This document shows positions 13,733 to 48,157 of a stretch of 64,000 bases of DNA, piece by piece (within the stretch, counting starts at the first letter, position 1; each line of letters opens with the position of its first letter). Origin of the DNA: Angustibacter luteus (GTDB lineage Bacteria; Actinomycetota; Actinomycetes; Actinomycetales; Angustibacteraceae); NCBI RefSeq assembly GCF_039541115.1, contig NZ_BAABFP010000008.1, positions 186,001 through 250,000 of the forward strand, read 5' to 3'. The notes under the pieces were generated by a model. That model saw only the letters and a list, made by a program, of their open reading frames with translations, was not told the origin of the DNA and searched no databases. The position numbers and the translations under genes were made by a program.

Positions 13733-14247
13733 GCGCGTCGACAGCCACGCCGCTGCAGACCGGCACCTGGCAGGTGCAGGCGGCCGACAGCCGGGCCGGC
13801 TTCACCGTCGCGAACCTCGGCAAGACCGTCGCGGGGACCGTCCCGGTGCGCTCGGGCGAGGTCGAGGTCGACGCGTCCGGCGCCCCGCGGCGGCTGGTGG
13901 CCGAGCTGGACCTGGCGGCCCTCGACACGGGCAACGCGCGCCGCGAGAAGGACCTGCGCAAGCCGCGCTTCCTCGACCTGGACGCGCACCCGACCCTGAC
14001 GTTCGTCAGCGACCGGATCAGCACCCAGCACGACGGCTGGACGGCGCAGGGCACGATCGCGGCTCGCGGCACGAGCTGCCCGCTGACCCTACACGGGACG
14101 CTGCCGGGCGAGCCGGGTCCGGACGGCCGCGTGCCGGTCGAGGCGACGGCGGTCCTGGACCGGCGCGACCTGGGCTTGAAGGCGCCCCGGCTGATGATCG
14201 GCCGTCAGGTCGGCATCACGGTGACGGCCTGGCTGCGGCTCGCCTGA
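13729..14247 (+). CDS. YceI family protein
   Basis: 172 residues, matching a YceI lipocalin-like beta-barrel: the sequence opens TGTWQVQAADSRAGFTVAN and has KPRFLDLDAHPTLTFVS in the middle, both family signatures. YceI proteins bind isoprenoid or amphiphilic ligands. No signal peptide is seen, so it is probably cytoplasmic, unlike E. coli YceI. It is the second gene of a pair overlapping the upstream hypothetical gene by 4 bp. Its 3' end overlaps the convergent ThrE-like gene by 32 bp. Confidence 0.93.
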   Translation: MSASTATPLQTGTWQVQAADSRAGFTVANLGKTVAGTVPVRSGEVEVDASGAPRRLVAELDLAALDTGNARREKDLRKPRFLDLDAHPTLTFVSDRISTQHDGWTAQGTIAARGTSCPLTLHGTLPGEPGPDGRVPVEATAVLDRRDLGLKAPRLMIGRQVGITVTAWLRLA

Positions 14248-15637
14248 GCCACCAGCGGTCGGCGGGCGCGGCGAGGACGTCGCCGAGGGCCACGCCCGCG
14301 CCGATCGCGAGGGCAGTCGCCATCGCCAGGAACAGCTGCCCGATGCCGGCCTGCGGGTCGCTGGACAGCAGGCTCATCGCCCGGAAGATCGCCAGGCCGG
14401 GCAGCAGCGTGGACAGCGCAGGCACCGAGAGCACCAGCGCGGGCGCCGTCATCCGTGCGGCGAGCAGCCGGGCCAGCAGCCCGACGACGACGGCGGCCGC
14501 GGCCGTCGCGGCGGTCGGCCCGGCCAGGTCGCTGACCCGCAGCAGCCCGTAGATCGCGTAACCGATGACGCCGATCAGCACCGGCGGCAGGACCAGCCGG
14601 CGCGGGCTGCGGTAGGCCACTGCGGTGGCCAGCGAGGCGACGGCCGCGCAGACCAGGCCGCGGACGACGTCCACCGCGGTCGTCCCGGTCAGGTCGACCA
14701 CCAGGTCGAGGTCGAGCCGCTGCGCCAGCCCGAGGCCGATGGCGGTGCCCGAGATGATCGCGGCGCCGGTCAGCAGCACCTGGAGCACCCGGCCGGACGC
14801 GGTGACCGAGAAACCGAAGATCGCGTCCTCGACGGCCGCGACGAGCAGCCGCCCGGGCAGCAGGACGACGATGCCGCCGGCGATCACCGCGCCGGCGTCG
14901 CGCGGGCCGATCAGCTCGAGCTCGGCCGCCAGCACCGTGACGACGGCGGCGATCGCGGCGCCGACGAACGTGATGAAGAACGGCACCAACCGGCGGCGGC
15001 CGAGGTAGCGACCGAGCCGGTCGACTGCGACGCTGGCCACGAACGCCAGCGCCGTGGCCCGGGCACCACCGCCGACCAGCGCGCAGACCGCGGCGGCCAG
15101 CAGGCCGTAGGCGACCGACACCACCCACCGCGGCCACGGCTTGGGCCTGGTCTCGATCTCGGTCAGCCGCCGGTCGGCCTCCTCGCGCGAGCAGCGGCCG
15201 GCGACCAGGTCCGAGACGAGCCGGTAGGCGTCGGCGAGCCGGGCGTGGTCGCGGCTCTGCGTCCGGGCCACCCGCAGCAGGTTCACCGGACGCCCGCCGG
15301 CCGGCGCGTGCTGCAGCAGGATCGACTGGGCGGTGATGTCCACCTCGACGTCCGTCAGACCCATCGCCGCGGTCACCGCGATCAGGGCGGCCTCGACGTC
15401 CCGGGTGCCGGAACCGCTGCGCAGCAGCAGGTCCCCCAGCCGCAGGCCGAACTCGATGACCTCGCGGGCCTGCTCCTCCTGCGGGGCGCCCATCCGGCTC
15501 GGGTCGCGGAACGGCGTGCCGCGCAACCGGTCCACCAGCGGCACCGGACCCGTCGGCTCCTCCGAGCGCAGCCAGCGCTGCCAGGCCAGGCCCGGCTGGT
15601 GCGGCTGGCCCGACCCGCGTCCGGTGGGCTCGGTCAT
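14216..15637 (-). CDS. Threonine/serine exporter family (ThrE-like) membrane protein
   Basis: 473 residues. The N-terminal ThrE domain (about residues 60-285; EFGLRLGDLLLRSGSGTRDVE and the ITAQS segment) is followed by a C-terminal ThrE_2/DUF3815 domain (about 310-455). Together they provide about ten transmembrane helices, as in the fused corynebacterial ThrE type. It is likely a proton-driven exporter of Thr/Ser or small peptides. The ATG at 15637 follows CAGCAT by six bases and is divergent from the SGNH hydrolase, with only 24 bp between start codons. Confidence 0.9.
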   Translation of the reverse strand: MTEPTGRGSGQPHQPGLAWQRWLRSEEPTGPVPLVDRLRGTPFRDPSRMGAPQEEQAREVIEFGLRLGDLLLRSGSGTRDVEAALIAVTAAMGLTDVEVDITAQSILLQHAPAGGRPVNLLRVARTQSRDHARLADAYRLVSDLVAGRCSREEADRRLTEIETRPKPWPRWVVSVAYGLLAAAVCALVGGGARATALAFVASVAVDRLGRYLGRRRLVPFFITFVGAAIAAVVTVLAAELELIGPRDAGAVIAGGIVVLLPGRLLVAAVEDAIFGFSVTASGRVLQVLLTGAAIISGTAIGLGLAQRLDLDLVVDLTGTTAVDVVRGLVCAAVASLATAVAYRSPRRLVLPPVLIGVIGYAIYGLLRVSDLAGPTAATAAAAVVVGLLARLLAARMTAPALVLSVPALSTLLPGLAIFRAMSLLSSDPQAGIGQLFLAMATALAIGAGVALGDVLAAPADRWWLRRAAARPSP

Positions 15638-15643
15638 GGCCCC

Positions 15644-15655
15644 ATGCTGCACGAT
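15644..15655. promoter_or_regulatory. Abutting divergent -10 elements for the ThrE-like and SGNH genes
   Basis: CAGCAT on the minus strand (15649-15644) is six bases from the ThrE-like ATG. CACGAT on the plus strand (15650-15655) is six bases from the SGNH GTG. The two hexamers touch, so two polymerases could not occupy both. Each -35 would lie in the opposite gene. Confidence 0.45.
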
Positions 15656-15661
15656 GAGCGG

Positions 15662-16504
15662 GTGGACGAACGAACCGAAGAGCAAACCACGCAGGCCCCG
15701 CCGTGGACGCGCTACGTCGCGGTCGGCGACTCCTTCACCGAGGGGATGGAGGACGTCGGCGAGGACGGCGCGTACCGGGGCTGGGCGGACCGGCTGGCCC
15801 ACCAGCTGGCCGGCGGGCGCGCGGCCGCGGACCCGACCGGCGGCGCCATCGAGCCGCTGCGGTACGCGAACCTCGCCGTCCGTGGCCGGCTGCTCGGCCA
15901 GATCGTGCAGGAGCAGGTCCCGGCGGCGATCGAGCTGGGCGCCGACCTGGTGAGCCTGGTGGGCGGCGGCAACGACGTGCTGCGTCCGGGCAGTGACCCG
16001 GACCGGCTCGCGGCCCGGCTCGAGGCCGCGGTGGTCGACCTGCGGGTCAGCGGGGCCGACGTCCTGCTGGCCACCCCGGTCGACCCGGTGCAGTCCCCGC
16101 TGATCAACCTGACCCGCGGCAAGGCCGCGGTGTTCGCCGCCGCGATCTGGACGATCGCCCGCCGGCACCAGACGTACGTGCTGGACCTGTGGGGCATGAA
16201 GGCGTTGCAGGACAGGCGGTTGTGGGCTCCCGACCGGATCCACCTGACCAGTGAGGGCCACCAGCGGGTGGCACTGCACGCCGCCGAGGTGCTGGGGCTG
16301 GCCGGCGACGGGAGCTGGGCCATCCCGCTGCCGCCGGCCCAGGCCCGGGACCGGCGCACCGCCCTGCGCGAGGACGCCCAGTGGCTGCGCCAGTACGTCG
16401 GCCCCTGGGTGGGTCGCCGGCTGCGCCGGCAGTCCTCCGGCGACACCGTGCAGCCGAAGCGGCCGACGGCCGAGCCGCTACCGCTGGTGGACCGGGACAG
16501 CTGA
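15662..16504 (+). CDS. SGNH/GDSL-fold hydrolase
   Basis: 280 residues. Block I GDSFTEG carries nucleophile Ser24, block III GGGND has Asn104, and block V DRIHLTSEGH carries Asp191 and His194. The complete set predicts an active esterase/lipase-type hydrolase. No signal peptide is present, so it acts in the cytoplasm. The C-terminal ~50 residues are Arg-rich, with a PWVGRRLRR segment that could touch membranes or nucleic acid. An in-frame ATG lies at 15644, but the GTG at 15662 keeps the six-base distance from CACGAT. Confidence 0.92.
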   Translation: MDERTEEQTTQAPPWTRYVAVGDSFTEGMEDVGEDGAYRGWADRLAHQLAGGRAAADPTGGAIEPLRYANLAVRGRLLGQIVQEQVPAAIELGADLVSLVGGGNDVLRPGSDPDRLAARLEAAVVDLRVSGADVLLATPVDPVQSPLINLTRGKAAVFAAAIWTIARRHQTYVLDLWGMKALQDRRLWAPDRIHLTSEGHQRVALHAAEVLGLAGDGSWAIPLPPAQARDRRTALREDAQWLRQYVGPWVGRRLRRQSSGDTVQPKRPTAEPLPLVDRDS

Positions 16505-16510
16505 ACGCGG

Positions 16511-17449
16511 TCAGCCCAGGGCGCGGACGGCGTTCGACGGGCTCGGGCGGCCCATCAGCCCGGCCAGCCAGACGCTGGTCGCGACGAGCTTCGGCAGGTC
16601 GACGCCGGTCTCGATGCCCAGGCCGTGCAGCTGCCACACGAGGTCCTCGGTGGCCAGGTTCCCGGTCGCGGACATGGCGAACGGGCACCCACCGAGCCCA
16701 CCCGCCGAGGAGTCCACCGTCGTGATGCCCTGTTGCAGCGCGATCAAGGTGTTGGACAGCGCCTGGCCGTAGGTGTCGTGGAAGTGCACGGCCAGGGCCT
16801 CGCGCGGCACCCCGGCGGCCGCCAGGCCGTCCAGCAGCCGCACGACCTGACCGGGAGTGGCCACCCCGATCGTGTCGCCGAGCGAGATCTCGTGGCAGCC
16901 CTGCTCGCGCAGCGCGAGGACGACGTCCACCACCGCGGCGGCGTCGACGTCCCCCTCCCACGGGTCGCCGAAGCACATCGACACGTACCCGCGGACGGAG
17001 CGGCCGGCGGCCAGCGCACCCTCGACGACCTGGCCGGACATGGCGAGCGCCTCGTCCCGGGAGGCGTTCAGGTTCTTGCGCGCGAAGGACTCGGTGGCGC
17101 TGACGAACACGGCCAGCTCGGGGACGTCGCGGGCCAGCGCCCGCTCGAGCCCGCGCGCATTGGGCACGAGCACCGGGGCCCGCACCCCGGCCAGCTCGCC
17201 GGTGGACAGCGGGCCGAGCAGGTCCAGCAGCTGCTCGGCGTCCGCCAGCTGCGGCACCCACCTGGGGTGCACGAAGCTGGTCAGCTCGACCGCGCGCAGC
17301 CCGCTGGCCACCAGCCGGCGGACCAGCTCGGCCTTGACCTCGACCGGGACGACCTCGGACTCGTTCTGCAGGCCGTCGCGGGCGCCGACCTCGTAGATGC
17401 TGACGCGCTCGGGCAGGCCGGGGATCGGGGTCACCTGGGGCTCTCGCAC
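16511..17449 (-). CDS. mvaB: Hydroxymethylglutaryl-CoA lyase
   Basis: 312 residues, the usual length. It cleaves HMG-CoA to acetoacetate and acetyl-CoA in leucine catabolism. Signatures: YEVGARDGLQNE near the N-terminus (catalytic Arg and metal-binding Asp), VHFHDTYGQ (metal-binding histidines) and GGLGGCPFA with the active-site Cys. No other leucine-degradation gene is visible in the window. The GTG at 17449 follows TAGGGT (17461-17456) by six bases, so the gene probably has its own promoter lying just past the stop of the upstream HEAT-like gene. Confidence 0.95.
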   Translation of the reverse strand: MREPQVTPIPGLPERVSIYEVGARDGLQNESEVVPVEVKAELVRRLVASGLRAVELTSFVHPRWVPQLADAEQLLDLLGPLSTGELAGVRAPVLVPNARGLERALARDVPELAVFVSATESFARKNLNASRDEALAMSGQVVEGALAAGRSVRGYVSMCFGDPWEGDVDAAAVVDVVLALREQGCHEISLGDTIGVATPGQVVRLLDGLAAAGVPREALAVHFHDTYGQALSNTLIALQQGITTVDSSAGGLGGCPFAMSATGNLATEDLVWQLHGLGIETGVDLPKLVATSVWLAGLMGRPSPSNAVRALG

Positions 17450-19256: not shown

Positions 19257-19281
19257 AGGTTACCGGGCGGCCTGCCACACT
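19257..19281. promoter_or_regulatory. Divergent leaderless -10 elements for panD and the MBL-fold hydrolase
   Basis: TAACCT (19262-19257, minus) serves panD and CACACT (19276-19281, plus) the hydrolase. Each is exactly six bases from its start codon. The whole intergenic space is 37 bp. Confidence 0.5.
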
Positions 19282-48140: not shown

Positions 48141-48157
48141 ATCATTGCTCCTACGAT
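48141..48157. promoter_or_regulatory. Closely spaced divergent -10 elements for the D-amino-acid genes
   Basis: AATGAT (48146-48141, minus) and TACGAT (48152-48157, plus) lie 5 bp apart, each six bases from its start codon. Two polymerases could not bind together easily. Confidence 0.5.

Follow-up and report, generated by a model that had tools for sequence, protein, structure and literature searches.

The divergently transcribed ThrE-like and SGNH/GDSL hydrolase genes are separated by only 24 bp (15638–15661), and within this stretch two -10-like hexamers, CAGCAT (minus strand, 15649..15644) and CACGAT (plus strand, 15650..15655), abut at 15649/15650, each located 6 nt from its own start codon. 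Both are probably genuine leaderless -10 elements. We consider it likely that they represent two distinct, minimal leaderless promoters, oriented away from one another and adjacent by happenstance, with the two genes most likely expressed independently. The site is contained in the window, by which we mean the whole 64,000-nucleotide stretch analysed (contig C8, 186001-250000), drawn from a high-GC genome of 4.16 Mb in 11 contigs. The first-pass annotation had placed 24 bp between the starts and touching -10 elements at 15649/15650, and on re-reading the coordinates agree. When the 24 bp is shuffled, the probability of nANNNT preceding both starts is P=0.00025 for spacer 6, and P=0.0011 if spacer 7 is allowed as well. 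Coordinates are listed in Table 1.

Table 1 Coordinates of the ThrE-like/SGNH junction and of two further divergent sites in the window.
Feature	Position	Strand	Remarks
ThrE-like threonine/serine exporter CDS	14216..15637	-	ATG start, A at 15637
SGNH/GDSL hydrolase CDS	15662..16504	+	Predicted GTG start, 15662-15664
Predicted -10 of ThrE-like gene, CAGCAT, spacer 6	15644..15649	-	Leaderless model posterior 0.96
Predicted -10 of SGNH gene, CACGAT, spacer 6	15650..15655	+	Posterior 0.97; register common to family relatives
Predicted leaderless TSS (= start codon), ThrE-like gene	15637	-	From -10 position
Predicted leaderless TSS (= start codon), SGNH gene	15662	+	From -10 position; 25 bp from opposite TSS
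Alternative in-frame ATG, SGNH gene (MLHDERVDER...)	15644..15646	+	From sequence; overlaps ThrE -10; pick of signal-free caller
Alternative in-frame GTG, ThrE-like gene (VQHGAMTEP...)	15650..15652	-	From sequence
Second site, predicted -10 TAACCT, aspartate decarboxylase (panD) starting 19250	19257..19262	-	Hexamer scan, leaderless-aware caller, Pfam
Second site, predicted -10 CACACT, metallo-hydrolase gene starting GTG 19288	19276..19281	+	Hexamer scan, leaderless-aware caller, Pfam
Third site, candidate -10 AATGAT, aldolase-like gene starting ATG 48134	48141..48146	-	Weak; aldolase-like by sub-cut-off NCBIfam match
Third site, candidate -10 TACGAT, PfkB-family sugar kinase gene starting GTG 48164	48152..48157	+	Kinase by sub-cut-off NCBIfam matches

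The minus-strand protein matches Pfam ThrE (PF06738, 1.2e-58, 198.9 bits against a cut-off of 26.3) and ThrE_2 (PF12821, 9.4e-15, 55.4 bits against a cut-off of 27). It is named ThrE-like because the NCBIfam ThrE equivalog model scores 234.6 bits, under its cut-off of 550. The SGNH protein matches Lipase_GDSL_2 (PF13472, 3.9e-24, 86.5 bits against a cut-off of 32.9) and displays the GDS motif as GDSFTEG; its closest named matches in the genome collection, from which very near records may be absent, come from two MAGs, one of Kineosporiaceae (69% identity in the best segment) and one of an unclassified Actinomycetota (66%), and indicate an actinobacterium.

To describe the -10 register independently of promoter signals, gene calling in 800 kb of the genome relied on codon usage and start codons only. 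Before the 252 divergent starts so obtained, nANNNT was found at spacer 6 in 58 cases and at spacer 7 in 27, compared with 0-10 cases at each of the other 23 spacers between 0 and 24. With a leaderless -10 model applied to 1.6 Mb, 423 of 1435 genes qualify in the true register; in seven shifted registers the number is 59-100 of 1435. This comparison is biased towards the true register by the use of the same model in choosing the starts. Counts from the leaderless-aware caller are partly circular, because -10 elements were used in selecting start codons. The shifted registers, which played no part in that selection, understate the chance rate; taken literally, they would attribute 14-24% of leaderless calls to chance, and the true share may exceed this. 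A gene-free scan of the 800 kb for paired start/-10 patterns showed no clear excess of the 6/6 register over the 3/3 decoy (at distance 25, one match in the 6/6 register, the ThrE-like/SGNH site itself, and one in the decoy), and it is uninformative given that several spacer combinations match themselves by symmetry. The register enrichment, seen genome-wide and again among the SGNH relatives described below, backs the first-pass annotation in calling both genes leaderless.

Neither hexamer begins with the T found in most called leaderless -10 elements (T 363, C 171, G 107 and A 8 of 649). A C-first hexamer is a normal -10 variant in this genome, since CAGGAT is the fifth commonest leaderless -10 (31 of 649). 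The two hexamers outscore only 33% and 41% of the called leaderless -10 elements. Neither strand of the 24 bp between the start codons contains a Shine-Dalgarno motif (GGAG, GAGG or AGGA).

Conservation was considered for each gene separately. Of 30 SGNH loci, own included, 16 have a candidate start preceded by nANNNT at spacer 6 or 7; for the remaining spacer pairs the mean is 1.6 loci and the maximum 4. The own locus and all three family members found (G001, G002 and G003) have nAC(G/C)AT at spacer exactly 6, the relatives reading GACCAT (G001), GACGAT (G002) and CACGAT (G003). In G002 the hexamer falls in a stretch that could equally be the 3' end of the upstream ung reading frame; the -10 sequence may not act alone there, and its conservation may not count in full. 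For ThrE, 14 of the 28 loci with candidate starts, own included, show the spacer 6/7 register, compared with a mean of 3.5 and at most 7 for other registers; these relatives are distant (<=46% identity) and located in other contexts, which leaves the ThrE -10 with no ortholog for comparison.

The caller without promoter signals selects ATG 15644 for the SGNH gene, while inclusion of the leaderless -10 model yields GTG 15662 together with ATG 15637 for the ThrE-like gene; for annotation, the model thus shifts the called SGNH start from ATG 15644 to GTG 15662. Because the signal-free caller selects ATG 15644, we infer the SGNH start at GTG 15662 rather than taking it as given. Were ATG 15644 the true start, the SGNH mRNA would carry a leader and originate at a promoter within the ThrE-like gene; CACGAT would then belong to the coding sequence, its register being coincidental. 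We regard this as highly improbable: ATG 15644 is in frame and is the choice of coding score alone, but no Shine-Dalgarno-like sequence is seen by eye upstream of it, the signal-aware caller favours GTG 15662, and the family relatives carry nANNAT at spacer 6. In addition, the relative L044 has such a hexamer at spacer 7, before a GTG at the place matching GTG 15662, 21 codons before GDSFTEG. On the opposite strand, the start codon of the relative L069 aligns with residue 1 of the ThrE-like protein (MTEGT vs MTEPT), and this alignment supports ATG 15637 as the probable start.

The same relative provides an argument for a different reading, in which the SGNH -10 is the sole genuine element, CAGCAT matches by chance, and a promoter within the SGNH gene gives rise to a leadered ThrE-like mRNA. 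L069 has no nANNNT at spacer 6 or 7 although its start codon aligns with the ThrE-like ATG, CAGCAT is rare as a leaderless -10 in this genome (3 of 649), and it has no ortholog at that place with which to be compared. A match of this quality in this register is, however, seldom due to chance: nANNAT, the class to which both hexamers belong, precedes 14 of the 252 divergent starts at spacer 6, compared with 4 at spacer 7 and 0-2 elsewhere. No Shine-Dalgarno-like sequence is apparent by eye upstream of ATG 15637 either. We therefore view a chance origin of CAGCAT as unlikely, and retain two leaderless promoters as the preferred reading.

These promoters appear to lack a -35 element. The first-pass annotation had placed each -35 inside the opposite gene; the -35 position does fall there, but no recognisable -35 sequence is found, the best TTGACA match at spacers 15-20 being 2/6 for the ThrE-like gene and 3/6 for the SGNH gene. 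A conserved -35 sought at the six promoters of the three divergent sites in the window was likewise absent, with best matches of 2-3 of 6. Across 470 strong leaderless calls, 15 show a -35 match of at least 5 of 6 compared with 4.2 in shuffles, a small excess.

We sought the junction in other genomes by comparing the coordinates of ThrE and SGNH matches by eye in 99 genomes (98 relatives and the own genome). ThrE matches were found in 73 and SGNH matches in 75, with both in 55, own included (54 of the 98 relatives). The divergent 24-bp junction was seen in the own genome only and in none of the 98 relatives, some of which are fragmented such that junctions at contig ends may be missed. One relative (G004, L186) has the two genes in tandem, and five f6 genomes (G026, G042, G057, G071 and G085) have them in divergent orientation, separated by 1.8-2.8 kb that includes other genes. 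In the latter loci (L179-L183, from G042, G057, G085, G026 and G071), the intervening genes are an amidohydrolase (Pfam, L179) and/or a ketopantoate-reductase-like gene (Pfam, L181). The same-genus genome G001 has a distant ThrE relative ~10 kb from its SGNH gene. These observations suggest that two often-leaderless genes came to adjoin back to back in this lineage, with no sign of selection as a unit.

The commonest upstream neighbour of the SGNH gene is instead uracil-DNA glycosylase (ung) in tandem, found at 18 of the 30 loci, the own locus not being among these. The 16 loci in the leaderless register are divided between the two contexts: 8 belong to the 18 loci with tandem ung and 8 to the remaining 12. 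In G001, whose ung copy matches Pfam UDG, ung and SGNH are separated by three called genes, of which the one closest to SGNH encodes an amino-acid permease and is divergent from the SGNH gene. An HMGL-like gene is located nearby downstream of SGNH, in convergent orientation, in the window (16511-17434) and in G001, G002 and G003; its identity is by Pfam for the window copy and by likeness of sequence for the other three.

The spacing of divergent starts was surveyed in 2.4 Mb (58% of the genome) with the leaderless-aware caller; counts are approximate, given its chance calls and its failure to call the third site. In this sample 649 of 2188 genes are leaderless by posterior, and 88 of 336 divergent pairs are double leaderless, 22 of these having starts <=40 bp apart. 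The start-to-start distances in the 88 pairs include 16, 19, 19, 19, 25, 25, 26 and 26 bp. Of the 88, the ThrE-like/SGNH site alone has exactly abutting hexamers. In two pairs the hexamers are separated by 1 bp (C8 307767/307793 and C7 572434/572460), and in five pairs they overlap (starts 16, 19, 19, 19 and, in the other 25-bp pair, 25 bp apart). The ThrE-like/SGNH spacing is the tail of a continuum and nothing special in this genome. A preferred spacing, hinted at by a gap at 41-52 bp in the first 1.6 Mb, was rejected when the held-out 0.8 Mb contained pairs at 45, 46 and 46 bp. Helical periodicity (9.5-11.5 bp) was not detected in the 67 distances of 20-120 bp (p=0.69).

Similar but wider arrangements had been noted at 19.25-19.29 and 48.13-48.16 kb in the window, and both were recovered, as 19250/19288 (37 bp) and 48134/48164 (29 bp). 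The third site was missed by the leaderless-aware caller, and only 6% of called leaderless -10 elements score lower than its AATGAT. No match to the metallo-hydrolase was found beside panD in 22 relatives' loci, for which the flanks covered extend to ~1.5 kb at most. The aldolase/PfkB pair recurs in one of 19 kinase loci of relatives (L160 in G016), where the genes are divergent with 86 bp between starts; the kinase there keeps a -10, TAGCAT, at spacer 6, and the aldolase gene has an SD-like GGAGG upstream.

As leaderless genes, the ThrE-like and SGNH genes are ordinary. Passages of PMC3160421 describe TANNNT ~12 bp upstream of the start as the mark of leaderless genes, which average 19.2% in Actinobacteria. 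Our site is alike in its -10-like nANNNT ~12 bp before the start, the absence of an SD and the large share of leaderless genes; as far as those passages go, it differs in hexamers that begin with C instead of T and in nothing else of substance. In the proposed mechanism, each promoter would consist of an nANNNT -10 only, 6 nt before the start codon and without a recognisable -35. The housekeeping RNA polymerase holoenzyme would initiate at or beside the start codons 15637 and 15662, and both mRNAs would be translated without a leader. With tight gene packing and many leaderless genes, divergent genes may need only ~24 bp between them. The site would presumably hold one polymerase at a time, with little consequence at ordinary promoter strength, although interference could arise should one side be strongly activated.

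The site was also compared with known divergent promoters. The bacterial bidirectional promoters of Warman, Grainger and colleagues are defined, in the sections of PMC10268837 consulted, by divergent TSSs 7-25 bp apart, and the excerpts of PMC12825309 and PMC10268837 describe TSSs that flank, or fall inside, a common -10 with symmetric bases, to which these promoters owe their bidirectionality; a distance of 18 bp is the commonest, and 10 and 23 bp are also common. The ThrE-like/SGNH site would resemble these in having predicted divergent TSSs within 25 bp and probably incompatible polymerase binding; the predicted distance of 25 bp is at the limit of the definition. It differs in having two complete abutting hexamers (15644-15649 and 15650-15655) that share no base, and in that both transcripts are predicted to be leaderless. 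Separate divergent promoters are, in the excerpt of PMC12825309, not called bidirectional, and they do not clash where polymerase binds. Our site is like these in its two independent -10 elements for two genes, and differs in that the -10 elements are probably too close for both polymerases at once. We have hence classed it as two separate leaderless promoters, divergent and closely packed, and as a borderline case of a bidirectional promoter.

The first-pass annotation had further proposed that polymerase bound on one side would exclude the other, and that expression could be mutually exclusive. The former is a sound steric argument: simultaneous binding of two holoenzymes would be impossible at this site, as judged from polymerase size and by analogy with bidirectional promoters, at which steric constraints are stated to bar it (PMC12825309, in part). 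Its extension to expression is unsupported. A mutual-exclusion switch, in which polymerase at one -10 blocks the other and exporter and hydrolase are expressed alternately, could draw on this exclusion and on predicted TSSs at the outer limit of the 7-25 bp class, but we find it very unlikely. In PMC12825309, the basal activity of all five bidirectional promoters tested in E. coli was insufficient for competition, and losing one direction barely altered the other; interference, or repression of the partner, could arise when one direction is substantially activated. Neither promoter at our site has a recognisable -35 and both hexamers are mid-to-low scoring, neither gene is a regulator by Pfam, and double-leaderless divergent pairs with starts <=40 bp apart are commonplace (22 of 88). 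Furthermore, the failure to see the junction in the 98 relatives, 54 of which have matches to both proteins, gives no sign of selection on the arrangement. Independent expression is the default expectation, given those low basal activities and the modest hexamer scores.

A broader proposal is that Actinobacteria hold widespread double-leaderless divergent promoters, with TSSs ~25-40 bp apart and polymerase exclusion coupling or quietening two unrelated genes. We judge this decidedly unlikely. If true, it would define a class just beyond the known 7-25 bp one, with the ThrE-like/SGNH site as the limiting case, and the first codons of each gene would double as upstream promoter DNA of the other. 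Irrespective of this, where leaderless genes are common, divergent genes with 24 bp between their starts can still each carry a promoter. No description of abutting divergent leaderless promoters was found in the open-access papers searched, as judged by titles and abstract openings. The 22 double-leaderless pairs with starts <=40 bp apart in 2.4 Mb constitute a natural test set for the spacing and strength threshold of divergent polymerase interference in a high-GC bacterium.

Three of the overlapping pairs deserve separate mention. At C8 465559/465578, C2 352260/352279 and C2 379239/379258, the divergent starts are 19 bp apart with spacers of 6 and 7, such that one A and one T are key to the -10 elements of both strands. 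In this they match symmetric bidirectional promoters in geometry, while the two genes of each pair are predicted to be leaderless.
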